35,682 nucleotides of DNA from a virus. Each line of letters begins with the position of its first letter. Within the stretch, counting starts at the first letter, position 1. Positions 7,297 through 35,682 of this stretch are shown piece by piece. A model generated the notes under the pieces. The model ran no database searches and was not told where the DNA came from. It was given only the letters and a program-made list of their open reading frames with translations. Where the stretch lies: IMG/VR virus record IMGVR_UViG_3300009507_000050, positions 1-35,682 of that record. One strand, given 5' to 3'. The position numbers and the translations under genes were made by a program.

Positions 7297-7989
7297 TTAC
7301 TTAGGAAGCAACTTGTCGAGTCTTTTTATTTCAAAGCCAAACATAGAAACTACGTTTAAAACTTTATCGTCACGTACATAAAAGTAGTATGTGCCGTAAT
7401 ACTGAGCTTTGTTCTTTCTTATTGCTTCTATAGTGCTTGTTCCGGCACGTACATAAGTGTTATTATTTGTTTCGAGATAAGCAGCAAGGGCAGTGTCGTG
7501 TATTTTCCCTACAGTGATTTTATATTTGTACTGATCGGCAAAACTATGATAGATAGTATTAGGTTCTATGTTATCATTCTTTTGAACATGTAACTTATGT
7601 ACACATGACAACTCCTTAGCAATATCACGAACCTTGCCTTCCTCATTAGAGTAGAGACTAAGATTGTTTAGTTCTACTCTTGTTTTTGTATCCGGAGCAG
7701 TTACGGTTAAGAAGTTATACAGCTTTTCGCAATCTTGGATATCTGTAGAAGTTGGTTGAAATCGACGTAGGGTCCATTTAGTCGGGTACCGCAGCGCTCC
7801 GGGCCCTGCTTGTTCGAGAGCTTCGTCCCAGTTAGCGCTGCTATTCATGTATTGCTTAGCAAAGTCGATTGTTTCACGAGCTTGAACACGATCTGCCGAA
7901 CGAAACAAATGCCCTATACAAGTTATTAGCTCAAGTTTGTATTTGTATTTGTTATAGAACAGTCCGCTTGCTATTACTTCATGTAACAT
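7297..7989 (-). CDS. Unknown protein translationally coupled to ClpA-like gene
   Basis: This 230-residue protein has no recognised family. It is rich in aromatic and charged residues, has no signal peptide or membrane helix, and looks like a soluble alpha/beta protein; a Lys/Tyr-rich stretch (NKYKYKLEL) lies near the N-terminus. Its ATG sits inside the last codons of the ClpA-like gene (11-base overlap), so translation is probably coupled to the unfoldase. It ends just before the late promoter of the 145-residue structural gene. Tight coupling raises the possibility that it works with the ClpA-like protein, for example as a substrate adaptor, but no sequence feature proves this. It is probably transcribed from the sigma70-like promoter at 10237-10264. 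Confidence 0.75.
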   Translation of the reverse strand: MLHEVIASGLFYNKYKYKLELITCIGHLFRSADRVQARETIDFAKQYMNSSANWDEALEQAGPGALRYPTKWTLRRFQPTSTDIQDCEKLYNFLTVTAPDTKTRVELNNLSLYSNEEGKVRDIAKELSCVHKLHVQKNDNIEPNTIYHSFADQYKYKITVGKIHDTALAAYLETNNNTYVRAGTSTIEAIRKNKAQYYGTYYFYVRDDKVLNVVSMFGFEIKRLDKLLPK

Positions 7990-10210
7990 TTTGGTTGCTT
8001 TCGTAAGACAGAGTGATGTTCTTAGCTGCGCTAATAGTTACAGTGCCACCGTCTTTAAGCTCGCCGAACAGGATTGCTTTACTGAGCGGAGTCTTAATCT
8101 TCTCGTCAATGACTCGGCCTAGCGGACGAGCGCCCATTTCACGATGATAACCGTGTTTCATAAGATACGCTTTAGCGGTCTTATCAAGTTTTACAGTTAC
8201 GCCCTTGCCTTTAAGTGTAACACGCAGGTCGCTGATAAACTTGTCAACAATCTTACCAATTACAGATTCTTCAAGGTAGTTAAACGTAACAACTTTGTCA
8301 AGACGGTTTCTAAACTCTGGCGAGAAGAATTTCTTAAACGCAGCGTCTTTGTACACTTTCTGCGCAGCATCACCAAAGCCGATTGTGTTCTTTTCACTGT
8401 CAGCAGCGCCAAGGTTTGTAGTAAGAATCAATACACAGTTAGACACGTCAATCTCTTTACCGTTACCGCCGGAGATCTTACCATAGTCCATTACCTGTAG
8501 CAGGATCTGACTGATGTCTGGATGCGCTTTCTCAATCTCGTCGAGCAACAGTACACAGTTAGGATGTTCTTGTAGCTTATTAATCAGCTTACCGGAACTA
8601 TCACCATAACCTACATAGCCCGGAGGAGAACCCAGCAGCTTAGATACACTGTGTGACTCTTGATATTCACTCATATCAAAACGTACAAGTTCTACGCCTA
8701 AGTTGTCTGCGATTTGCTTAGCAGTTTCAGTTTTACCTGTGCCAGTTGGGCCCATAAACACAAAGCTACCAATTGGCTTGTTACGATCTTTAAGGCCTGC
8801 TTGTGCTACAAGGATCTTGTCTACTACTTGTTCAATAGCAACATCTTGTCCGTATACATAGCTCTTGATGTTTGACTCAAGATTAGCAAGGCTTGTAGTT
8901 TCACGCTCGCGAATGTTTTCAACAGGCATCTTGAGAACTTTAGCCATTTCAACTTCGATCTCAGAAGCCTTAACTACTCGCTTGCCTTCAAAGCCGTCGA
9001 GTAGATTAAAACGTGCGCACGCTTGATCAATAAGATCAATTGCTTTATCAGGAAGCTTTTTATCATGCTGATACTTTACACTAAGTTCAACAGAACGAGT
9101 AAGTGCGTTCTTGTGAATCTTAATTTTGTGATACTTTTCGTAGTACTTCTTAATACCAGCAAGGATAGCTACTGTATCTTTTTCACTTGGTTCTTCAACA
9201 CTTACACGTTGGAAGCGTCGCATAAGCGCAGTGTCTTTTTCAAAGTGCTTGCGGAACTCATCCCACGTAGTGCTACCGATAACTTTGATAGTACCTTTAG
9301 ACAGAGCTGGCTTAAGAATGTTAGCAAGATCGTTTGGATTTTCACTTTGTCCCGCTCCGGCACCGTTCATCATATGTGCTTCGTCGATATACAGAATAGC
9401 TTTTTCGTGCTGGATGAGATCTTCAAGCAGTGCGTCCATACGTTCTTCAAATTCACCACGGTAACGAGTACCAGCGAGAAGAGTAGTAATCTTAAGACTA
9501 AACACTTCGTACTCTTCGAGGAACTTAGGAACTTCTTTATTAACAATTCGGTATGCGAGTCCTTCGGCAATAGCAGTTTTACCTACGCCAGGGTCGCCAA
9601 CAAGCATTACGTTGTTTTTAGAACGCCGGCCAAGCGATAGAGCAATACTTTCAATTTCTTCAGCACGACCGATAACTGGATCAATTTCTCCGTTAGCAGC
9701 CATTTCGGTTAAGTTGTCAGTATAACGTTCAAGCGGGTTTGCGTGCTTGCCACCGCCAGCAGCCAGTCCTTCTTCAAACATAAACTCACTGTATAAGAAC
9801 TCAGCCATCTTGTCTTTGGTAACACCGGCTTGAATACAATAGTAAGTAGCAAGGCAGTTCTTTTCGTGAAGAAGACTTAGAATAATATCAGCTAAGCTAA
9901 CTTTATCTCGATTAGAAAACAGTGCTTGTGCGAACGAGCGTTGCATTACACGTTCAACTGCCCGTGTCTTCTTTGCTTTAATCTTCCCTTCTATTACAAT
10001 ATCATCGCATTCGTTGAGTAGATGATTCTCTAGCCGATTCTTAAGGCTTTCGTAGTCAATGCCTAGTTCAGTTAGAGTCACTCCGAACTCTTCGACACAC
10101 ATGATAGCAAAGGTCAAGTGCTCAAGAGTTAGATACTCGTGCTTGAGTTTGCTTGCGTCTCTATTAGCTTTTTCAAAAGCCAATTGTACTTCTTCAGTTG
10201 TGTTTAGCAT
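7979..10210 (-). CDS. clpA: ClpA-type double AAA+ protein unfoldase
   Basis: This 743-residue protein has nearly the length of bacterial ClpA. Residues 1-143 form a Clp N-domain-like region. The first AAA+ module has Walker A GDPGVGKT at 205-212, Walker B LYIDEAH at 273-279 and pore loop GTRYRG at 247-252. The second has Walker A GPTGTGKT at 487-494, Walker B LLLDEIE at 554-560 and pore loop GYVGYG at 531-536. There is no ClpB-type middle domain. Residues 610-612 are IGF, placed exactly where ClpA carries its IGL loop that docks onto ClpP, followed by the conserved PEFRNRLD. So it should unfold proteins and feed them to a ClpP peptidase, presumably the host's, since no clpP is in the window. 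It has its own sigma70-like promoter and follows a J-protein gene. An AAAGG ribosome site precedes the ATG. Confidence 0.95.
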   Translation of the reverse strand: MLNTTEEVQLAFEKANRDASKLKHEYLTLEHLTFAIMCVEEFGVTLTELGIDYESLKNRLENHLLNECDDIVIEGKIKAKKTRAVERVMQRSFAQALFSNRDKVSLADIILSLLHEKNCLATYYCIQAGVTKDKMAEFLYSEFMFEEGLAAGGGKHANPLERYTDNLTEMAANGEIDPVIGRAEEIESIALSLGRRSKNNVMLVGDPGVGKTAIAEGLAYRIVNKEVPKFLEEYEVFSLKITTLLAGTRYRGEFEERMDALLEDLIQHEKAILYIDEAHMMNGAGAGQSENPNDLANILKPALSKGTIKVIGSTTWDEFRKHFEKDTALMRRFQRVSVEEPSEKDTVAILAGIKKYYEKYHKIKIHKNALTRSVELSVKYQHDKKLPDKAIDLIDQACARFNLLDGFEGKRVVKASEIEVEMAKVLKMPVENIRERETTSLANLESNIKSYVYGQDVAIEQVVDKILVAQAGLKDRNKPIGSFVFMGPTGTGKTETAKQIADNLGVELVRFDMSEYQESHSVSKLLGSPPGYVGYGDSSGKLINKLQEHPNCVLLLDEIEKAHPDISQILLQVMDYGKISGGNGKEIDVSNCVLILTTNLGAADSEKNTIGFGDAAQKVYKDAAFKKFFSPEFRNRLDKVVTFNYLEESVIGKIVDKFISDLRVTLKGKGVTVKLDKTAKAYLMKHGYHREMGARPLGRVIDEKIKTPLSKAILFGELKDGGTVTISAAKNITLSYESNQNVT

Positions 10211-10236
10211 ATGCTACCTTTTTTGTTAATGTTCTT

Positions 10237-10264
10237 ATAATAACACTTTTGCGCTAAAAGTCAA
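10237..10264 (-). promoter_or_regulatory. Sigma70-like promoter for the clpA-like gene, with a dyad in the spacer
   Basis: On the minus strand there is a -35 TTGACT (10259-10264), a 16-base spacer and a -10 TATTAT (10237-10242); shifting by one base gives ATTATA with a 17-base spacer. The -35 contains the TGA stop of the J-protein gene. The spacer holds an imperfect palindrome with 6-bp arms ACTTTT and AAAAGT (10245-10250 and 10256-10261), a possible repressor site. Confidence 0.65.
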
Positions 10265-11052
10265 GTGTTCTTTGTGTAAATCAAGTCACGAACGTGTGAA
10301 AGTTTTTCTATAATTTCTTCGTCGTGAACATCGGGCATGACAGCTTCGATTTTTAATAGTACATTGCCTGCGATTCCTGTAGAAATATTAGGAATACCGT
10401 AGCCTGAAATATTTAGTACAGTGCCGGGCTTTGTGCCTTTTCGTATGGTTACAGAAAACTCACGCCCTGTCGGTATTGTTACGGGCACCGAAGCGCCAAG
10501 CATTAAATCTAATATGTTAACAATGATTGTAGATGATATACTATCACCGGAGTCACGCTTCCAGTCTGAGTCTCCCTGAACTCTTATTGCTATTATCAAT
10601 TTACCAGGCGGCATATGCGGATTTGAATCGTCGCCTAAGTTGGCAAATGTTAGCTTTTGATTGTCACGAATACCTTTAGGAATTTTAATAGTAATGTCTT
10701 TGGTTTTTCCACTGGGCAACTCGTAGCTAATGTCGACATGTTTATCAGTAAACTGATCGCTAAAGTTTATAACTTGCTCAACAAGTATGTTTTGGTTATG
10801 CTGCATACGCTTATAGTAAAAGGTTTGGTTAAGCCAGCTATCAAAACTATCACTTTGTTTAAACGTAAAGTCGTATTGACTACGCTTGTCTTGATCTTTT
10901 AGTGTGTTGTATGCTTCTGTTATTTTTGAAAACTTTTTAGGATCGCCGCCGCGGTCAGGATGACTAGTTAACGCAAGCTTTCTGTAAGCTGATTTAATTT
11001 CATCCTGACTGGCTGTTTTGTTTATATTAAGTATTGTATAGTAGTCGTCCAT
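10261..11052 (-). CDS. DnaJ/CbpA-like J-protein (class B, no zinc finger)
   Basis: This 263-residue protein starts with a J domain (about residues 1-62) containing the HPD motif at 31-33, needed to stimulate DnaK ATPase, and the helix IV region (KRSQYDF). It lacks both the Gly/Phe-rich linker of usual length and the four CxxCxGxG zinc repeats. The rest (about 85-255) matches the two beta-rich substrate-binding domains of CbpA/class B J-proteins, with IKIPKGIRDNQKL and IPTGREFSVTIRKGTKPG segments. It would recruit host DnaK to phage or host substrates. It lies directly upstream of the clpA-like gene; its TGA stop is inside that gene's -35 box. The start has only a weak, distant ribosome site (AAGAAGGA in the preceding gene), so translation may depend on the upstream EF-hand gene. 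Confidence 0.92.
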   Translation of the reverse strand: MDDYYTILNINKTASQDEIKSAYRKLALTSHPDRGGDPKKFSKITEAYNTLKDQDKRSQYDFTFKQSDSFDSWLNQTFYYKRMQHNQNILVEQVINFSDQFTDKHVDISYELPSGKTKDITIKIPKGIRDNQKLTFANLGDDSNPHMPPGKLIIAIRVQGDSDWKRDSGDSISSTIIVNILDLMLGASVPVTIPTGREFSVTIRKGTKPGTVLNISGYGIPNISTGIAGNVLLKIEAVMPDVHDEEIIEKLSHVRDLIYTKNT

Positions 11053-11060
11053 ACTAATAC

Positions 11061-11402
11061 TTATTTGCTATCCTTCTTCTTGTTAAAATTTTCTACACCT
11101 TCTTTGGCGTAAAAAGCAGCAACAATAGCAGCAACAGAAACAAAGTATGTAGGTGCTATGTCTTTAAGTAACCCACCTGCGGTTTCTAATCCGAATAAAC
11201 TTGTACCGATTATCGAAAACGGATACAGCAACATGCCAAACAAAGCAAACCATGCCATCATACGCTGAGCATCTTGTTTCTTATCGTCGTTTTCGATTTG
11301 AATCATACGCTCAGCTTTTGCCATCTCTTCGTCTGTTACAATTCCGTCACCGTCTTCGTCAAATTGATTATATATCGAATCCTTTTCGAGTGATTTCCCC
11401 AT
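11061..11402 (-). CDS. EF-hand membrane protein (holin candidate)
   Basis: This 113-residue protein has one canonical EF-hand loop at residues 15-26 (D15, D17, D19, G20, V22, E26), which fits the DxDxDG...E calcium-binding rule. A charged helix follows, then two probable membrane helices at about 49-71 and 84-99 and a lysine-rich C-terminal tail. Similar EF-hand plus two-helix proteins occur, as far as I know, in other marine T4-like phages without a proven function. Its neighbours are a nuclease and, a little upstream, a spanin pair, and the size and topology are compatible with a holin. The holin role is inference. Its ATG follows the nuclease stop codon with no gap, and the ribosome site is weak. 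Confidence 0.8.
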   Translation of the reverse strand: MGKSLEKDSIYNQFDEDGDGIVTDEEMAKAERMIQIENDDKKQDAQRMMAWFALFGMLLYPFSIIGTSLFGLETAGGLLKDIAPTYFVSVAAIVAAFYAKEGVENFNKKKDSK

Positions 11403-12065: not shown

Positions 12066-12416
12066 TTATTCTACATTAACGTAATAATTTTCATATGCTG
12101 CTATTATAGCCTGCTGCTGCTGTATTATCTGTCTTGCGTTTTGATAGTTAATTGATATGTTAGCATAACCTTCGTCTGATAACGAGAAAAATACAACAGG
12201 TTCACCAGACTTTTCAAGTTCGGCAAATAATTGTTCATAGTTTTCTTCAGTGAGTAGCACCCATGACACTTCTTTTTGATCTACTGTGTCAATATCAGGC
12301 AGTGTTAGTTTTAGACGCTCAGTTGGCGCACTAGTTACTTGTATTGGAGTAACTAAGTTACCTCCGCAACTAGTAAGTGCCAGTAATGCTAGAGAAGCTA
12401 AAATTACTTTAATCAT
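12066..12416 (-). CDS. Outer-membrane spanin (lipoprotein, Rz1-like)
   Basis: This 116-residue protein begins with a lipoprotein signal peptide: K at position 3, a hydrophobic stretch, and a lipobox ending LTSC with the modified cysteine at C17. The mature part is mostly alpha/beta with a Gln-rich C-terminal helix. The gene overlaps the preceding coiled-coil membrane-protein gene by 8 bases. This arrangement is the usual i-spanin/o-spanin pair, which fuses inner and outer membranes in the last step of Gram-negative lysis. At about 100 mature residues it is longer than classical Rz1, comparable to separated spanins in T4-like phages. Function is by context and topology, not strong sequence similarity. 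Confidence 0.75.
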   Translation of the reverse strand: MIKVILASLALLALTSCGGNLVTPIQVTSAPTERLKLTLPDIDTVDQKEVSWVLLTEENYEQLFAELEKSGEPVVFFSLSDEGYANISINYQNARQIIQQQQAIIAAYENYYVNVE

Positions 12417-12894
12417 TTACTTTCTCCTCTTCTTCTGTTACTGGCGGCTGCCATAACCACGGACACTCGCTGTTAAATGAGTTGCCGCTTTCAGCAGCTA
12501 GCTCATCTTCTGTAAGGTCATCGCCGCTAAGAATTTCAATACATCTGTTGGCTTTTACAGTAGCACGATTAATAATACGTTCTACTAACACCGGCTTTGC
12601 TTCGCCTAGTAACCCTAAGTCGTGTCGTTCTAGTTTGCCTATTAGGTTTTGATTTTGTTTGCGTATTGCTGCGAACTCGTCGTTTACTTTTTGTAGCTCC
12701 TCAGTCGCAAGTTTAAAATCTCTTTGTAATACTTTAATTGTTTCTTCGTTAGTCGCTACTGCTTGCTGAAGCTTTGCTTCGTTTGCCCTTGATATATCTA
12801 GCTGGGTCTGTAAGTGATTTACATACCAAAATATTCCAAGTGCTAATGGTATTAGAGCTGCTACTATAATTAGCATTAGCTTTGCTCTTAACAT
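12409..12894 (-). CDS. Inner-membrane spanin (Rz-like)
   Basis: This 161-residue protein has one N-terminal membrane anchor (about residues 7-25) after a short basic start, then a long coiled coil (about 30-90) predicted to face the periplasm, and an acidic C-terminal tail with two cysteines that may pair. This is i-spanin architecture. Its end overlaps the start of a lipoprotein gene by 8 bases, supporting a spanin pair. An AGAAAGG ribosome site is formed by the last codons of the upstream gene, whose stop is 1 base before the start codon. No endolysin is in the window, so the lytic enzyme must be elsewhere. Confidence 0.75.
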   Translation of the reverse strand: MLRAKLMLIIVAALIPLALGIFWYVNHLQTQLDISRANEAKLQQAVATNEETIKVLQRDFKLATEELQKVNDEFAAIRKQNQNLIGKLERHDLGLLGEAKPVLVERIINRATVKANRCIEILSGDDLTEDELAAESGNSFNSECPWLWQPPVTEEEEKVND

Positions 12895-12895
12895 T

Positions 12896-13609
12896 TTACA
12901 ACCTTTCTGCTACTAAACAGTAGCCGTTATTTTCAATAATAAGTTTGTTACCGTATTTGGTAATATCATAGTCACCTAGATATTTTACCATAAAGATTAT
13001 TTCACCAAAGTCGTTAAAGTTATACGATTCTGTAAGATTAGCATGTACTTCATTATGAGTAGCAAAGTCAATTACATTAAATTGGATCGGATCGGAATAT
13101 ACCTTTTTAAGTGTTAGAATATTTTCATCGATCTTAATACTATCAAGAAAGCTCTTTTTAAAGAAATTATCTATGTTGTGATTTTCAGCTACTTTTAAAT
13201 CTACACCGTAGCGATCAGGGTCAGTAATAACTTGCTTGGTTAGATTTTCTTCTGTAGCCGGCACACTTTTAAAGTTTTTGTAGTATCTAAACTTGTAGTC
13301 GTTACTGTCTGTAAGTTTTTCAACGCCGGATAGTATTTCTAAAATATGATTAATAGCCGACTTGTCTCTAGCTATTTCAGAAAACACTCTAAAGTGGCCA
13401 TCGTCTTGTTCGCCGCTTGATACTGCGCTATCTAGAATAAAGTGATAGCCTGCTTCTAGAAATTTTACTAGATCTTTAGCAGGCGGTTCGGAGCTAACAT
13501 CAAACGAAATAGTAACAATGTTTTTGTCTTCGCCCATCTTACTAGAGTACGTATCAATGTCAAACGTCTTTTTTACAAGATCCTTAAGATCACCTTGACT
13601 TAACCCCAT
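12896..13609 (-). CDS. Conserved unknown protein of T4-like marine phages
   Basis: This 237-residue protein starts MGLSQGDLKDLVKKTFDID and then has SKMGEDKNIVTISFDV. I believe similar proteins occur in marine T4-like phages next to the 179-residue gene found directly upstream here, but I know no function. It is a soluble alpha/beta protein rich in charged and aromatic residues, with no signal peptide or membrane segment. It starts 1 base after the stop of the 179-residue gene with a GGAG ribosome site and is presumably transcribed from the late promoter at 14170-14177. Late expression suggests a virion or assembly role, which is inference. Confidence 0.75.
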   Translation of the reverse strand: MGLSQGDLKDLVKKTFDIDTYSSKMGEDKNIVTISFDVSSEPPAKDLVKFLEAGYHFILDSAVSSGEQDDGHFRVFSEIARDKSAINHILEILSGVEKLTDSNDYKFRYYKNFKSVPATEENLTKQVITDPDRYGVDLKVAENHNIDNFFKKSFLDSIKIDENILTLKKVYSDPIQFNVIDFATHNEVHANLTESYNFNDFGEIIFMVKYLGDYDITKYGNKLIIENNGYCLVAERL

Positions 13610-13610
13610 T

Positions 13611-14150
13611 TTATACTCCGCCCATTGCTAGTGGATCAGCGCCGCCGAGGCCTGCCATATCGTCAGTAGCAATATCTTCAACTGGCGGCTGCTGTCCTGC
13701 GTCCATTTGTTCAACTTCGTCTTTGTTAAAAATGTCTTGACCACCGTAAACACTCTTCATCAAAGACTTAGGCATCTTAATACCTACAATATAAATCTTC
13801 TCTCTAAGAAGCTTGCCTTTTTTAGTACCAGGGCGAACATCATCTGTGTGCTTGATCTTCTTAGGAGTCACAAAGTAACTTGTGCCTGTTTTAACTAACA
13901 CTTTATTACTGCGCAGGCGCTTGATAGCTGCCTCGTCTGGTCTTTTCTTATCGGGCCACATAAAGTAACAAGTTACCCAATACTTACTAGCCATCGGCCC
14001 TTGTAGAAGCTCGCCGTTGTCCCAGTTATCGTAAACGTAAATATCAAAGTATTCGTCAAGCACTCTCTCAAAATCTTTGAGAATTTGAAGAGCTGTTGTA
14101 CTGTTATACACTCTGTCAATATTATTTAAAAGTCGTTCAACATCATACAT
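13611..14150 (-). CDS. Conserved T4-like marine phage protein, probably structural or assembly
   Basis: This 179-residue protein has a globular N-terminal part with DNWDNGELLQGP and KYWVTCYFMWPDKKRPDEAA segments, a basic middle, and an acidic, Gly/Asp-rich C-terminal tail (about 145-179). I recognise the ENWxxGEL..GP / RYWV..xFMxP style of sequence as conserved among T4-like marine phages, without a known role. It has an AGAGGA ribosome site and a GATAAATA late promoter 20 bases upstream, so it should be expressed late. Divergent phoH lies on the other side of the promoter region. The flexible acidic tail could mediate assembly contacts. Confidence 0.75.
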   Translation of the reverse strand: MYDVERLLNNIDRVYNSTTALQILKDFERVLDEYFDIYVYDNWDNGELLQGPMASKYWVTCYFMWPDKKRPDEAAIKRLRSNKVLVKTGTSYFVTPKKIKHTDDVRPGTKKGKLLREKIYIVGIKMPKSLMKSVYGGQDIFNKDEVEQMDAGQQPPVEDIATDDMAGLGGADPLAMGGV

Positions 14151-14169: not shown

Positions 14170-14177
14170 TATTTATC
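14170..14177 (-). promoter_or_regulatory. T4-type late promoter, GATAAATA, leftward
   Basis: GATAAATA on the minus strand, 20 bases upstream of the ATG at 14150. It would drive 13611-14150 and the genes downstream, including the spanins. It is back to back with the rightward late-type element at 14212-14219. Confidence 0.7.
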
Positions 14178-20922: not shown

Positions 20923-21132
20923 TTACCAAAGCCCTAGTGTTCGGCCATTACCTGCTATAATAGCAAAACAAGTAACAACGTGTAACGCAATCCAGAATGT
21001 TCGGAATGCTAGCGCTTTCTTTACGTCTGTTTGAGAGATGGGCAAGAATTCTGGTTTGTCGTCATCGTTAATGCCGATCGGCATTCCGACAGTTCTTGCC
21101 CATACTTTAAGCCAGCGTCGCTGACCGCTCAT
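20923..21132 (-). CDS. Small membrane protein, unknown
   Basis: This 69-residue protein has a basic N-terminal half (RRWLKVWARTVG), an acidic middle and one probable membrane helix at about residues 44-61 (TFWIALHVVTCFAIIAG) near the C-terminus. A single C-terminal helix with a cytoplasmic N-terminus is compatible with an inner-membrane effector or an antiholin-like role, but no homology supports either. It starts on the last base of the gp31-like gene stop (one-base overlap). Confidence 0.65.
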   Translation of the reverse strand: MSGQRRWLKVWARTVGMPIGINDDDKPEFLPISQTDVKKALAFRTFWIALHVVTCFAIIAGNGRTLGLW

Positions 21133-21518
21133 TAAACAAAATCGCTTGGGTCAACGGTCATGTGCTCGCCGTCGTTGTATTCAGTACCAAACAATACATC
21201 GTCAGGCTTTGTCTCACTGTATCCAAGTACAGCAGTATTTTCTACCATACGAATAGTACCTGTAAAGCCTTCGGTATCAAACTCTACACCACGAGTCCAC
21301 CGCCCGTGTTCGATTAGAATCCAATCACCAACTTTATAGTCGTCTGTGTTGCGTGGGCCTTTGTCAAATACACGACCCCAGCGTGCGTGTACGCCGCGGC
21401 TCTTGCCGTCGTCGCTGCCTAAAATTAAGCCACCTTTGGTTTTCTGTTCACCAAAATCCATATCCGAAACAAGAACCTTGTCACCGATTGCTTTTACTTT
21501 AGATGTAAATGTTTTCAT
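21132..21518 (-). CDS. 31: GroES/gp31-like co-chaperonin
   Basis: This 128-residue protein matches the chaperonin-10 fold. It starts with KVKAIGDKVLVSDMD, has a mobile-loop-like stretch KTKGGLILGSDD (about residues 26-37), VGDWILIEHGRW in the core and a C-terminal acidic tail. It is longer than GroES (97) and close to T4 gp31 (111). Like gp31 it would cap host GroEL to help fold phage proteins such as the capsid. It starts after the 84-residue gene (GGAATAAATG) and lies within the late-type block. Confidence 0.88.
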   Translation of the reverse strand: MKTFTSKVKAIGDKVLVSDMDFGEQKTKGGLILGSDDGKSRGVHARWGRVFDKGPRNTDDYKVGDWILIEHGRWTRGVEFDTEGFTGTIRMVENTAVLGYSETKPDDVLFGTEYNDGEHMTVDPSDFV

Positions 21519-33500: not shown

Positions 33501-34461
33501 GATCATTTAGGTATAGCGCACCGGTCATAGTGTCGCCTTGACGTCTTACTACCGCATCACGTGGCAGCACTTGATTGCTGAGCCAGCTACCAGCTAAGCT
33601 AGAGTCGTAAGCAGCATCAGTAAGTGTGTGAGAATCTTCACTAGCAACAGCAGTATTGCCGATTAGAATCTTGTTGTTTAGCGCAGTTGCGCTTAGTGAC
33701 TTTGCGTCTGCTTCTGCAGCAAATAACGCAAGCTCGTTATCGTTAACGTAGCGTATATAGTATGTAGTACCGTCTACTAGGTTAGTAGGCGCTGTAAACG
33801 TAACGTCGAACACAAACGGCAAGCCGTTTTGCTGGCTAGTAATACCGTGGCTTGCGATGTACGCATTATTGTTTTGGTATTGCGTAACAGTTAATGCATG
33901 ATCACTAGCGCTTGGTTCTGTTGTGCTAATTCTATTGTCAGCGCCCTTTGGAGCATAACGTTGGTCAAGATGCTTTCTAGGAGCAACTAAGTCGTCAGCA
34001 GTGTAAGTGGTGCTGTTACCAGGTAGTGCGTTAAGCGCATCAGCAGCAGCGTCGCTTATTTCAACTCCGCCTATAGCAAAGCCGTTTGCGTTAAGGTGGT
34101 TGCCTAGCGTAGGAGCAACAGCATCGTCTTCTAACTGACCAAATGTAGTAGTTAAGATAATCTTACCTGGTATACTCAGTGTGTCGATTTGAACAGTATT
34201 TGCGTCATTACTGTCTAGCGCATTATCTGAAGCAAACTCCGAAAGTGTAACAGCAGTGCCTGCACTGTTAACTATAAGAATCTTATTTGCTTCTAGAGTA
34301 TCAGGAACATCACTCATATTAGTGATGCTAATCTGGCCACCTAATCCAAATACTGCGTAAAGCTCTTGGAAGTTTTCGTTACTCTTACGAAAACTTTCTC
34401 TAATGCTATCGCCAGTACCGTCGTTGCCTTCAATACCGATGTCTACTACTTGTCTTGACAT
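27502..34461 (-). CDS. Giant tail-fibre protein with beta-helix regions and peptidase_G2-like C-terminus
   Basis: This 2319-residue protein starts with VVDIGIEGNDGTGDSIRESF then KSNENFQELYAVFG, the anchor motif. From about residue 355 comes VLYVSPLGDD followed by a SYAFKTLGAAAEHA helix, typical of pectate-lyase-like beta-helix entry. A long beta-rich shaft follows. The C-terminal region (about 2190-2319) has RFEATYADIAEYYEADHTYE, GTVLVFGGEKEVT, KVAGVVSNNAAFTM and ALVGRVPV, resembling the peptidase_G2/IMC domain of phage fibres that acts as an intramolecular chaperone and cleaves itself. The CGGAGA ribosome site is good, but there is no TATAAATA directly upstream, so it probably shares the Fe-S carrier's late promoter. 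It is the likely main receptor-binding fibre. Confidence 0.9.
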   Translation of the reverse strand: MSRQVVDIGIEGNDGTGDSIRESFRKSNENFQELYAVFGLGGQISITNMSDVPDTLEANKILIVNSAGTAVTLSEFASDNALDSNDANTVQIDTLSIPGKIILTTTFGQLEDDAVAPTLGNHLNANGFAIGGVEISDAAADALNALPGNSTTYTADDLVAPRKHLDQRYAPKGADNRISTTEPSASDHALTVTQYQNNNAYIASHGITSQQNGLPFVFDVTFTAPTNLVDGTTYYIRYVNDNELALFAAEADAKSLSATALNNKILIGNTAVASEDSHTLTDAAYDSSLAGSWLSNQVLPRDAVVRRQGDTMTGALYLNDHPGELAGSGTPNGAADLQAASKFYVDNKATSSSSVLYVSPLGDDLQTNTPAGKEGSSLSYAFKTLGAAAEHANELVSNAQETTGPYVQALTHTNFTVNSTVSSASVATAQAPNADDKIKDNKEYLVEELKGFVQFTYPNYSFDERQFDRDYGDLIESLRFDLNRGTNANTLTKRFAQKFYSEVDSRVEIKQFLTENNAAVDKLYDIINDSIFENRGFQEKTVSSITKKSGNVAAVVTTTTNHGLVDGNLVKFTDVAGMTEINNQFAYAKVVTSTTFELYTNSTLTTLFDNSAYTDFTNDGNARSALRYQPYYQQDTTGANVNSTETTVATSLETLKDLVKNVWENGADVAQEIVHGEKYKIVLVNSGGQLDQTDSDNVDALPSKLLRGKTSGAIGQITSFENDATPGFTDFFVNMLSPLDFIVGEEVEYGYKTVTKQVTIQVEGGVFEEDFPIKIPANTSVIGSEFRRTVIKPHNGVSQSSYAGTYFYRDNEFDGLTVATEGVAVNDQQGNEKGKVGRHYLYRADRAKNVGSVIANTGSYTTAANILLENKEYIVEESLRFLDTNYNSVTYDAESYRTDFRALVDALADDLRDGGDAHSLVVQGSYHEVGNTDYLSRFGDSSTEVAVEATIDNVAVLANNLLSATAPVYTDSSYTAGNSAVTNIVSPNLSLGSGESGTATIVTALTDKINFVFSIDYNPPLRNCDIDAFLLNDASTVENITVQGHKSFAMVLDPTGQVLTKAPYIANSSSLTQSTNTKLFAGGVFADAYTGNIPVKIRGNSGTFDDGARGTVSLNAFTLWVESEDVDVIGDSTGLSTQGLKLKEPQVPAVFYTGGVRYQVNAISNYDQDLGRCIVYLDAGANGGTGYTGSVDVDTYIQSGGSRSVEISNFAQSNDLAYGIAGTNGAQITATGIESTYTQAAFYAADGTDIKVSNSTVNFGKFGLVADGTDPNEIPDDVDLIGNSTQAAKAYVDGSYTGNLNDGAIAVYDCAVAPMKDSIITIDHGTAGTLNYRVTSVTDITAASPTPAPSPTVLNANVYQLQFVAENSSTTDFYSTLQEAVTDDTIVEIRSGKQFLYDNVAAAGSLNPRPNTTVTYDESADVGYKATAFATTDNYGSALAANRVRATFDTDYKYIELTPNTTHNGGGFGSTANDTKLAIEVLTGGAAPFLDSTRIVGKVFAHAGKSHYITTYKNVTTLEMASAVSFTAGDTVTQDVTGATGTALKTVSSGTTVHVYDVTGTFNTTNTISSVVPTTVSVNNFAYVEFNISDASVSGSNINPSPQAAGLNTAITTTRKLFAGVTTGEDASVVENTAIIRSTNTVFKSVGAGSFNETNYPNDILGDPENTQDPTAFTDSPAASTAEVWERGQGRVFWTSTDQFGVFRVGQFFNVDQATGDTTIEGGVGISNAVSLGFASGTTVNEFSTDTSMSGVSDSAVPTEKAVKTYIDRRLHLDESGSVIAGGDKIGPGYLDLEGNATMTGDLNMGSSFRITNLTTNSGVTTDAANVAYVNSKVAEFDSISELADTSISSAATSDFLVYNGSAWEDAAVTGDVTLTRTGANAVTSAITAGAIVNNDVNASAAIAQSKLALDDATTSAKGIASFASAHFTVTSGAVDIAANSIAKADIEQIATSTVLGRTTAGTGNVEEIAISSLISAGGAVVDADFTADNTGSKVLTQVASGSYGLTNLSATTSNNSVVKRSATGEVDATAYQIDGSQILDVDGTDTVLKTTAGGVLLRGEGASNPVLETGGAVQVGDIANVANSTFQNASSYSANTSKLASTWIYTNFLEAATEKDATSTGIGLGAGGGFAESAADAIVAVSNGNVKVVINDSGLEVAAGSYVKTNTITTGASGTAGTITGNWSLTVGSRFEATYADIAEYYEADHTYEVGTVLVFGGEKEVTGCTEHRSTKVAGVVSNNAAFTMNQDCPGIAACIALVGRVPVNVIGQVSKGDMLVASAVPGYAIVDNDPKVGSVIGKAIEDKIDNDKGVVETLVGK

Positions 34462-34473
34462 GTTTGTCTCCGA

Positions 34474-34815
34474 TTAATTCATTGCTTCTAAGTCGAAATC
34501 TACACTAGTGCCGCATCCGCACGCTGCTTTTGCGTTAGGGTTAATAATTTTAAACATCTGACCGAACGCAACAGTTTCGTAGTCTATTTCAGTTCCTACT
34601 AAAAACATAATGCTTGTAGGATCTACTACTAGTTTCCCAGTATTAGCCTCAACAACTTCACTACCTGCTTCGATCTGATTATTGTCAATCACATCCCATT
34701 TATACTCAAAACCAGCACAACCGCCACCTTTAATACTAAGACTCACAGCCGTGTTGCTCGAACTTAGTTCATCGATTTTTTTCTTTGCGTTGTCTGTTAA
34801 AGACAAGATGGTCAT
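34474..34815 (-). CDS. A-type Fe-S carrier (IscA/ErpA/HesB-like)
   Basis: This 113-residue protein has the three conserved A-type cysteines: C33 in GGGCAGFEY, and C99 and C101 in ACGCGTSVDF near the C-terminus. DNAKKKIDEL at the start and FLVGTEIDY fit the HesB family. It binds iron or [2Fe-2S]/[4Fe-4S] clusters for transfer to apoproteins. It sits 12 bases upstream of the giant fibre gene under an AATAAATA late promoter, so it should be made late with virion proteins. Such genes are known in marine cyanophages. The client is not shown; the phage ferredoxin at 16901-17242 is a possible one. Confidence 0.93.
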   Translation of the reverse strand: MTILSLTDNAKKKIDELSSSNTAVSLSIKGGGCAGFEYKWDVIDNNQIEAGSEVVEANTGKLVVDPTSIMFLVGTEIDYETVAFGQMFKIINPNAKAACGCGTSVDFDLEAMN

Positions 34816-35108
34816 TGTGTTAAATTCCTCGTTACTGTATTTATTTGATTCTGTTGATTGTTAACCGTGCGGTTTAATTTTTGTATTTGCTTTTCTAAAT
34901 TAGAAACAGTTGCGTTAAGCTCTGTAACTTTTTGTTCTAGTGTTTCTACGTAGCGCTGCGACGGAACAGACTGCTCGCTACCGTCTTCTGCGATAACTGT
35001 ATGACTGTTAAGACCGTGCGCTCGAAGCCCGCCCATAACTCTGTTGGGGTTTTTACTAACAGAGCTAGACGTAGTGCTGTACATCTGTCGTAGGAATTGG
35101 CTATTCAT
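34812..35108 (-). CDS. Small coiled-coil protein, probable structural
   Basis: The start is taken at the ATG at 35106-35108, giving 98 residues, because AAAAAGGA lies just upstream and an AATAAATA late promoter lies at 35135-35142. A longer in-frame reading to 35294 would run through that promoter and the divergent gene. The protein opens MNSQFLRQMYST, has a Ser-rich linker and a NRVMGGLRAHGLNSHT segment, then a C-terminal coiled coil (about residues 54-98) rich in heptad Leu/Val/Asn. It may trimerise and help a fibre or neck structure. Its TAA overlaps the start of the Fe-S carrier gene by 4 bases. Confidence 0.75.
   Translation of the reverse strand: MNSQFLRQMYSTTSSSVSKNPNRVMGGLRAHGLNSHTVIAEDGSEQSVPSQRYVETLEQKVTELNATVSNLEKQIQKLNRTVNNQQNQINTVTRNLTQ
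34838..34845 (-). promoter_or_regulatory. T4-type late promoter, AATAAATA
   Basis: Minus-strand AATAAATA 22 bases upstream of the Fe-S carrier ATG (34815), located within the last codons of the coiled-coil gene. It would drive the Fe-S carrier and the giant fibre gene. Confidence 0.6.
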
Positions 35109-35128
35109 TTCGAATCCTTTTTCGTTTG

Positions 35129-35159
35129 ATACTGTATTTATTCTGTATATATACAGTAT
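35129..35159. promoter_or_regulatory. Palindromic divergent control region
   Basis: CTGTATATATACAG (35143-35156) is a perfect 14-bp palindrome touching the metallopeptidase ATG. A second, larger dyad pairs atactgtat (35129-35137) with atacagtat (35151-35159). On the plus strand a possible sigma70 site has -35 TTGATA (35126-35131), a 16-base spacer and -10 TATATA (35148-35153); it would start transcription close to the ATG. Confidence 0.5.
35135..35142 (-). promoter_or_regulatory. T4-type late promoter, AATAAATA
   Basis: Minus-strand AATAAATA 26 bases upstream of the ATG at 35108. It lies in the 49-base divergent intergenic region shared with the metallopeptidase gene. Confidence 0.6.
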
Positions 35160-35682
35160 GTTTAAAATTTTTGTTGCTAGTTTGTCATTACTTGTTGCCA
35201 GCGTTGCAGGCGCAGTAGACAGAGAAACCGAAGAAAGAATTATGCTCGAGCATATAGAATGGCTTGCTGAAGACTCGCTGATGTTTGAATACAATGGCGA
35301 GCCACTGCCTGCTGTTGTTTATGCCACGCAAGATCAATTAGGCGCTTATTTTTACGGGCTAGATAATTGGATACAAAATCAAGAAGATTTAGTGTCAATT
35401 GACGGCATATTTCGAAGTGAAGGCGAAGGTACCATTTTTTTACTCGACGATTTCGACTGGACTAGTAACGAGCATATTGATGTAGTAGTACACGAGTTAG
35501 TTCATTACCTACAGTATATTAACGATGTTAGCTACGACTGTTCAATCGCCGCAGAGCTAGATGCGTACAAGTATCAAACATACTGGATGATGGACAATCC
35601 ATCATCAAAGACAATGCCGTCCTACCTAATGGCAATTTGGATATTCGAAACATGCTTACTTGAAGCTATGGAAGCTGAAGAC
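35158..35682 (+). CDS. Secreted zinc metallopeptidase-like protein, partial (C-terminus outside window)
   Basis: An open frame from ATG 35158-35160 to the right edge gives 175 residues without a stop. The start MFKIFVASLSLLVASVAGAV is a typical signal peptide with a likely cleavage after AGA. The motif HELVH at 112-116 is the gluzincin zinc site, with a candidate third ligand E133 in AAELDAY, 17 residues later. C128 and C166 could form a disulfide, fitting an exported protein. I recognise a resemblance to small HExxH proteins of unknown function, not to a named protease. There is no Shine-Dalgarno; a message could be leaderless. It is on the opposite strand to all nearby structural genes. Target and timing are unknown. 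Confidence 0.8.
   Translation, partial: MFKIFVASLSLLVASVAGAVDRETEERIMLEHIEWLAEDSLMFEYNGEPLPAVVYATQDQLGAYFYGLDNWIQNQEDLVSIDGIFRSEGEGTIFLLDDFDWTSNEHIDVVVHELVHYLQYINDVSYDCSIAAELDAYKYQTYWMMDNPSSKTMPSYLMAIWIFETCLLEAMEAED

Follow-up and report, generated by a model that had tools for sequence, protein, structure and literature searches.

A phage clpA gene beside a J-protein gene

The 35,682-base IMG/VR virus record IMGVR_UViG_3300009507_000050, a genome fragment analysed here at its full length and referred to as the window, encodes a two-ring AAA+ unfoldase of the ClpA type and, 50 nt upstream of its gene, a J-protein, the two genes together occupying positions 7979-11052 (Table 1). The window ClpA matches the TIGR02639 ClpA profile at 836 bits over residues 5-727, the phage family phrog_4871 ('ATP-dependent protease') at 800 bits and E. 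coli ClpA (PDB 1ksf) at 626 bits in a single stretch, residues 6-731. An N domain is present, residues 6-133 being matched by the isolated ClpA N-domain chain 1k6k (E 8.7e-7). Because the match to ClpA is continuous and those to the ClpB and ClpC proteins of the PDB are each split into two stretches, the protein appears to have no middle domain of the ClpB/ClpC type. Its score falls below the 993-bit equivalog cut-off of TIGR02639 at NCBI, which is a curation threshold and not a structural feature; judged by sequence, the protein is a divergent phage branch, filed under the phage ClpA subfamily phrog_4871 and not under the bacterial equivalog.

The original prediction of a full-length AAA+ protein with both Walker sites and both pore loops is borne out, all of these motifs being found within the near-full-length ClpA matches. 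Walker A lies at residues 205-212 and 487-494, Walker B at 272-277 and 553-558, and the arginine fingers at 328-333 and 632-638. An AlphaFold2 monomer model (m75fce9471a89; mean predicted local distance difference test score, pLDDT, 81; predicted template modelling score 0.48) aligns with chain A of ClpAP (6w20_A) over 550 residues, with a Z score of 33.5 and a root-mean-square deviation of 5.2. ClpA, ClpC, ClpB and Hsp104 fall within a few Z units of one another in this comparison, which thus does not separate the families.

Table 1. Features of the clpA locus and related elements in the window
Feature	Positions	Strand	Remarks
Conserved gene, no assigned function	7297..7989	minus	230 aa; overlaps clpA end by 11 nt
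clpA, two-ring AAA+ unfoldase	7979..10210	minus	743 aa; TIGR02639, phrog_4871, PDB 1ksf
IGF ClpP-docking tripeptide codons (residues 610-612)	8375..8383	minus	IGF in 79/80 relatives
D2 pore loop GSPPGYVGYG (residues 527-536)	8603..8632	minus	GYVG invariant, 81 rows
D2 Walker A GPTGTGKT (residues 487-494)	8729..8752	minus	motif inspection
D1 pore loop GTRYRGEF (residues 247-254)	9449..9472	minus	Y, second R and second G invariant, 81 rows
D1 Walker A GDPGVGKT (residues 205-212)	9575..9598	minus	motif inspection
Sigma-70-type promoter, TTGACT-16-TATTAT	10237..10264	minus	10/12, TG before second hexamer; overlaps dnaJ end, directly before clpA
dnaJ, J domain and DnaJ_C, no zinc finger, no G/F-rich linker	10261..11052	minus	263 aa; PF00226, PF01556
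Late-promoter-like GATAAATA	14170..14177	minus	heads tightly packed run with spanin genes, dnaJ and clpA
gp31/GroES-like co-chaperonin	21132..21518	minus	phrog_931 51.5 bits, phrog_3188 27 bits

A fixed tripeptide in the ClpP-docking loop

At least 598 IMG/VR stretches encode a relative of the window ClpA at E 0.001 or better. The 80 nearest of these, which are no random sample, were aligned with the window protein, giving 81 rows of which 70 are distinct. Between D2 sensor 1 and the arginine finger lies a loop of the [LIV]GF type, in the place where ClpA docks onto ClpP and where the IGF tripeptide had been anticipated; the tripeptide reads IGF in 80 of the 81 rows and LGF in one, with G and F invariant, so that [IL]GF is present in all 80 relatives. 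At the position just before it the commonest residue occurs in 30 of the 81 rows, and at the five positions after it in 46, 40, 23, 27 and 50. Further before the tripeptide an E, a K and an N are well conserved (75, 76 and 79 of 81), so the surroundings are only partly variable. A fixed tripeptide in a largely variable loop is the pattern that ClpP docking predicts. The window ClpA would thus carry a putative docking loop of general type, which could suit both phage and host ClpP.

A probable clpP beyond the right end of the window

From the lack of a visible clpP it had been argued that the unfoldase probably captures the host peptidase. That argument fails, since the fragment ends early. Among 47 records holding ClpA relatives, chosen from the 80 and mostly the longer ones, nine have a match to the ClpP family (PF00574), seven of them canonical (212-266 bits) and two divergent. 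In all nine mapped records the gene is on the strand of clpA, 28.8-65.4 kb upstream, and the window reaches only 25.5 kb upstream of clpA; the missing clpP therefore probably reflects the end of the contig. Seven records reach 60 kb or more upstream of clpA; each has a PF00574 match, canonical in five of the six distinct ones. The search from the ClpP side agrees: of 17 ClpP records of at least 59 kb (16 from 80 ClpP loci, plus that of locus L255), 12 encode ClpA, including all eight of at least 120 kb.

Near relatives extend the window. L225, at 93% DNA identity, adds 1.9 kb to its right end; with L305, which contributes another 0.25 kb, the sequence reaches the C-terminus of a glycosyltransferase-like gene, and this is synteny of the window's own lineage. 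In five loci (L228, L229, L231, L315 and L316) a ClpP gene stands just upstream of the same glycosyltransferase-like gene, and the protein adjoining the window's end is 81-82% identical in them. The ClpP of L228 is cut by the contig end, and those of L229, L231 and L315 are 99-100% identical, so the five loci amount to about three independent cases. A further relative, L393, aligns with window positions 34220-35682 at 89.6% DNA identity over 1,464 nt and encodes a 204-aa ClpP at L393:1769-2383, 2,339 nt past the point aligned with the last base of the window. This protein matches solved ClpP structures in the PDB at E 2e-56 and, by sequence, resembles ordinary ClpP. The S, H, D triad is kept in 20 of 20 aligned ClpP-family proteins, and all three catalytic motifs can be seen by eye in the ClpPs of L228, L229, L231 and L393. 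We infer that the window phage's own clpP lies just off the contig. With a phage-encoded ClpP in most cases where enough sequence is at hand, capture of the host enzyme is not needed.

Two types of ClpP occur within this phage group, one with a 10-residue insertion after the catalytic histidine region (L092-L095 and L393; also Pseudomonas phage PA5oct) and one without it. L096/L097 and the records behind L233, L236 and L272 encode a further ClpP-like family, divergent and about 188 aa long (93-97 bits); its gene is read through an in-frame TAG in two records, which could be explained by a pseudogene or by stop-codon recoding.

ClpP and ClpS in phages of the same ClpA clade

In a 63-row ClpA tree a phage-only group of 37 rows (SH-aLRT, the Shimodaira-Hasegawa-like approximate likelihood ratio test, 99) unites the window's own group (SH-aLRT 100) with 12 named phage rows and leaves out VnaP, qdvp001 and three metagenomic jumbo phages. 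The tree is unrooted, its bacterial rows come from a scan for the window ClpA's own peptides and are therefore biased, including no alphaproteobacterial ClpA, and PA5oct and SCTP-2 form long branches that may be joined falsely. A scan of GTDB returned four matches at 48-60% identity and another 76 at 39-44%. The four (L117-L120) look like phage contigs binned into metagenome-assembled genomes (MAGs): L117, L119 and L120 have dnaJ upstream of clpA, and L118, a locus that starts inside clpA, has the downstream gene.

All 11 isolated ClpA phages examined have a PF00574 match, and all 11 match the ClpS profile PF02617 at E 0.001, ten of them over the cut-off. Six ClpA phages at a greater distance were examined as well; one of them, SCTP-2, in the same phage-only ClpA group, has ClpP at 234 bits and ClpS at 69 bits. 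Across the named phages examined in that group, ClpP is thus present in 12 of 12 and ClpS in 12 of 12 at E 0.001, 11 over the cut-off. In Phosso, Atu_ph07 and PA5oct dnaJ adjoins clpA and the loop reads IGF; the other eight have neither a dnaJ neighbour nor IGF, their loops reading IGV, VGF, IGM, IGV, LGM, MNM, LGM and MGM. Their ClpPs keep S, H and D yet differ at pocket positions. The idea that an intact IGF marks a phage with its own ClpP and a drifted loop one without was rejected, as RaK2-like phages with drifted loops have ClpP-family genes.

In 50,697 phage records, a tblastn search with one phage ClpS gave 15 matches. Phosso and 11 Pseudomonas phages, all in the ClpA list, make up 12 of these; two are labelled MD-2021a and one is a faecal contig. 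CAKLQF020000008.1, labelled 'Acinetobacter phage MD-2021a', contains bacterial chromosome sequence (argC, aroF, clpS-clpA), and matches there are not phage genes; its ClpA match was set aside on account of the argC and aroF neighbours. All seven ClpS-bearing records of the window's group, as well as PA5oct and Phosso, retain the ClpS residues that correspond to E. coli N34, D35, T38, M40 and H66; the three aligned ClpS proteins of RaK2-like phages, Atu_ph07 and Vibrio 2.275.O have lost some of them. A phage N-degron tagging enzyme was considered and set aside, the Aat profile (PF03588) matching 0 of 24 records.

The seven ClpS records of the window's group are exactly the carriers of a ferredoxin-dependent bilin reductase among the 22 records searched for it. 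At L103:1636-3755 Hsp20, ClpS, heme oxygenase and ferredoxin-dependent bilin reductase stand in a row (Pfam names checked), and a like row is seen by eye in L098, L100, L102 and L104, the phage bilin cassette being joined there by a Clp adaptor and a small heat-shock protein. In this respect the ClpS-bearing records resemble the hemO/pcyX phages of PMC11480375, in the available text of which Clp is not mentioned.

A conserved gene row around clpA

A survey of clpA and dnaJ neighbours, of the kind proposed with the original prediction, gave a uniform answer: among relatives whose sequence extends more than 700 nt upstream of clpA, dnaJ is its immediate upstream neighbour, on the same strand, in 77 of 77. 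The J-protein had been labelled class B. The J domain with its HPD motif, the DnaJ_C domain and the lack of a zinc finger (the protein contains no cysteine) agree with that label, but residues 62-93 hold no glycine, so there is no G/F-rich linker and the label is only approximate. HPD is found in 73 of 78 relatives; in the remaining five the gene begins at base 1 or 3 of its locus and has lost its start.

Of the 80 IMG/VR loci, 43 encode a peptide deformylase homologue (for example L015:5502-6008), as does Phosso, with two of them checked against Pfam. It ends at the clpA start in 42 of the 43 loci, after dnaJ where dnaJ is covered, and in the last one a longer overlap is the sole difference. 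No deformylase match was obtained in the window. Directly downstream of clpA, a homologue of the 7297-7989 gene is found in 76 of 80 loci. The model of its product is confident (pLDDT 86.6), a fold search returned no PDB match at E 0.001 or better, and the BFVD matches are to uncharacterised phage proteins only, one of them from Atu_ph07. This protein is a possible ClpA adaptor or substrate.

An early-type promoter before clpA

In the window, promoter-like sites between 7000 and 14500 number 18 against 16.9 in shuffled sequence, and the site before clpA, taken alone, is not significant. Its conservation was assessed in 49 representatives with less than 90% ClpA identity, 23 without and 26 with deformylase, a site being defined by at least 10 of 12 matching positions. 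Such a site precedes clpA in 17 of the 23 deformylase-less representatives, whereas 300 dinucleotide shuffles of these stretches give 0.75 on average and never more than 4; of 126 other genes with a gap of 40-300 nt, 7 have one (Fisher test, 2.7e-12). A site of this kind precedes clpA in 1 of the 26 deformylase-bearing representatives, and dnaJ in 5 of 44 representatives. The gene thus seems readable by a host-type RNA polymerase, and the conserved sigma-70-type promoter supports early expression of clpA.

The neighbourhood is of late type. Of 38 minus-strand genes, 7 have a motif of the T4-late-like form DATAAATA in the 45 nt before them, where 0.36 would be expected; the D of the pattern was settled on once several spellings had been looked at, and the 38 genes are a manual selection. 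Over the whole window there are 10 such motifs against 7.2 expected, which is not unusual; only their placement before genes is. Genomic position had been considered as proof that clpA is expressed late, and the conserved sigma-70-type promoter weakens that idea. For the early timing named in the original prediction, the conserved sites are support at the level of sequence.

Other neighbours and chaperone genes

The late-type neighbours in the window include virion proteins at 12896-14150 and fibre-like genes. An Rz1/Rz-like spanin pair is encoded by overlapping genes at 12066-12416 and 12409-12894 (12066-12894 in all), and downstream of the pair a small probable membrane protein (11061-11402) without a family match may be a holin. 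A gp31-like co-chaperonin elsewhere in the window had also been noted, as a member of the phage's proteostasis set; phrog_931 (head morphogenesis) and phrog_3188 (GroES) lend this identity weak but consistent support. DnaK is encoded in 2 of the 47 records holding ClpA relatives, and these two are near-identical. In L225 (875-1936) and L305 a UvdE-like UV endonuclease lies near an IscA-like Fe-S carrier at the window's right end, both named by eye.

Interpretation

We consider it probable that the gene supplies the unfoldase part of a ClpAP protease encoded by the phage itself, to which some relatives add a ClpS adaptor. ClpA hexamers made early would dock phage ClpP, and possibly host ClpP too, through the IGF loop; phage ClpS, in some relatives retaining the N-degron residues, would deliver substrates with particular N-termini; and the J-protein would recruit DnaK to these same unfolded clients. 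During infection such a system would probably serve to remove host and phage proteins selectively or to control their quality. A fuller version, which we put forward tentatively, as a possibility and not an expectation, is that a large marine and freshwater phage lineage has a private, co-inherited set of ClpA, ClpP and ClpS with a linked J-protein and often a deformylase, that clpA is read early from its own host-type promoter within a late block, and that the phage thereby imposes N-terminus-dependent turnover.

Several observations count against the favoured account of a phage-owned protease. ClpP and ClpS profiles match no frame of the window, whose own clpP is thus unseen, and L393 is a 90% relative, not the window phage, on a contig that ends before clpA. 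Among 33 records sharing the window's right-end gene, 13 have a canonical ClpP, two only the divergent paralogue and 18 none; in the ten with at least 20 kb upstream of that gene the figures are five, two and three, most of these being relatives at about 50% and counted irrespective of ClpA content. The 330-kb record L040, with ClpA and ClpS, has no PF00574 match, and the near-identical L074 and L078 records have only the divergent paralogue (94 bits). ClpS is found in only 7 of 47 records of the window's group. Of five ClpA phages outside the phage-only group, one has no ClpP match, three match weakly (57, 30 and 21 bits) and the fifth reaches 260 bits; ClpS was found in one of the five. ClpP-family matches are not rare in phages (1,257 of 50,697 records), and the counts of ClpA with ClpP cover only records chosen for one of the two genes. 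The ClpP-family genes of PA5oct and Atu_ph07 are sometimes annotated 'head maturation protease', and phage ClpP can serve as a prohead protease according to PMC5964084. In the monomer model the docking loop is disordered (pLDDT below 50 at residues 610-618).

Some of these points belong equally to the view that the phage protein takes the place of host ClpA on host ClpP, or competes with it there, and redirects host proteolysis, conceivably against host or defence proteins. The general ClpP-docking type of the loop, the early-type promoter and L040, with its adaptor and no ClpP, are what such redirection would lead one to expect, yet the phages themselves encode ClpP in most cases with enough sequence. 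Moreover, in the RaK2-like phages both the loop (IGM, IGV, LGM, MGM, MNM) and the ClpP pocket (E. coli F82 and L114) have drifted, as expected of a private pair, although this is one lineage contrast only. We therefore regard redirection of the host peptidase as unlikely.

A role in virion assembly has been suggested for jumbo-phage ClpA in PMC7824862. The protein would then act without ClpP, as an unfoldase or translocase, and the ClpP-family protein would be a separate head-maturation protease, as the annotations just mentioned have it. The window clpA does lie among spanin, fibre and virion genes, clpA stands beside virion genes in PA5oct, the RaK2-like phages, VnaP and qdvp001, and DnaJ and a gp31-like protein accompany it. 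Retention of [IL]GF throughout the relatives would be unexpected had ClpP binding been lost, however, and the L393 ClpP resembles the ordinary enzyme, so that we judge an assembly role decidedly improbable. Single AAA+ genes are often acquired by large phages, but the idea that clpA is cargo recently taken from a host, with no phage-specific role, is largely refuted and has very little probability left, given the number of IMG/VR stretches with a relative, the fixed dnaJ and downstream neighbours, the phage-only clade and GTDB matches that either look like phage contigs in MAGs or reach only 39-44%.

Relation to known systems and biological meaning

The closest precedent for a phage-owned set is the 490-kb Agrobacterium phage Atu_ph07, in which ClpA, ClpP, ClpS and DnaJ are known together (PMC6102473). 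As in the window, its DnaJ (gp293) adjoins ClpA (gp292) and the loop reads IGF, and it also has ClpP (gp676) and ClpS (gp708); its ClpA is only about 41% identical to that of the window, and its ClpS has D, L and E in place of N34, M40 and H66. The available text of that report suggests assembly, replication or aggregate clearance and names no single phage ClpAPS complex. Sinorhizobium phage Phosso (PV764938.1) has DnaJ, peptide deformylase and ClpA in a row, followed by one hypothetical gene and then thymidylate synthase and dihydrofolate reductase, together with its own ClpP and ClpS and an IGF loop. Its ClpA is 42% identical to that of the window, which differs in having no deformylase match. 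The order in Pseudomonas phage PA5oct (PhoH, two virion genes, DnaJ, ClpA, a structural gene, a tail gene) approaches that of the window, and this phage too has its own ClpP and ClpS and an IGF loop. It differs in a ClpA of 40% identity, in a ClpP only about 13 kb from clpA and in that, for the stretch examined, no spanin genes are listed in the interval from the virion genes to dnaJ. The Moraphages of PMC12619734 are large aquatic phages with a ClpA VOG occurrence of 24 and with DnaJ and DnaK in some; the word ClpP is absent from the available text. The phage set parallels E. coli ClpAPS in its two-ring ClpA with a docking loop and, in the window's relatives, in a triad-bearing ClpP and an N-degron ClpS. 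In E. coli, however, clpA follows clpS, whereas the window clpA is linked to dnaJ and its product scores below the ClpA equivalog cut-off.

Phage Clp genes are thus already known singly, and together in Atu_ph07. What seems fresh is the evidence for their joint occurrence throughout a broad lineage of phages and for a conserved promoter of early type belonging to clpA itself; no description of a dnaJ-deformylase-clpA row, or of all three Clp parts co-inherited across phages, was recognised in the literature searched, with subscription journals largely outside it. Phage clpA, clpP and clpS have so far been annotated as scattered single genes. Their joint presence, far apart, in the 12 named phages of the phage-only group points to one phage-owned protease, and the ClpA, ClpP and ClpS of these phages are purifiable parts. 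The row of dnaJ, deformylase and clpA links the processing of nascent chains with turnover. If early expression and an N-terminus-reading ClpS are both true, such a phage would help to decide which proteins, its own and those of the host, persist through infection.

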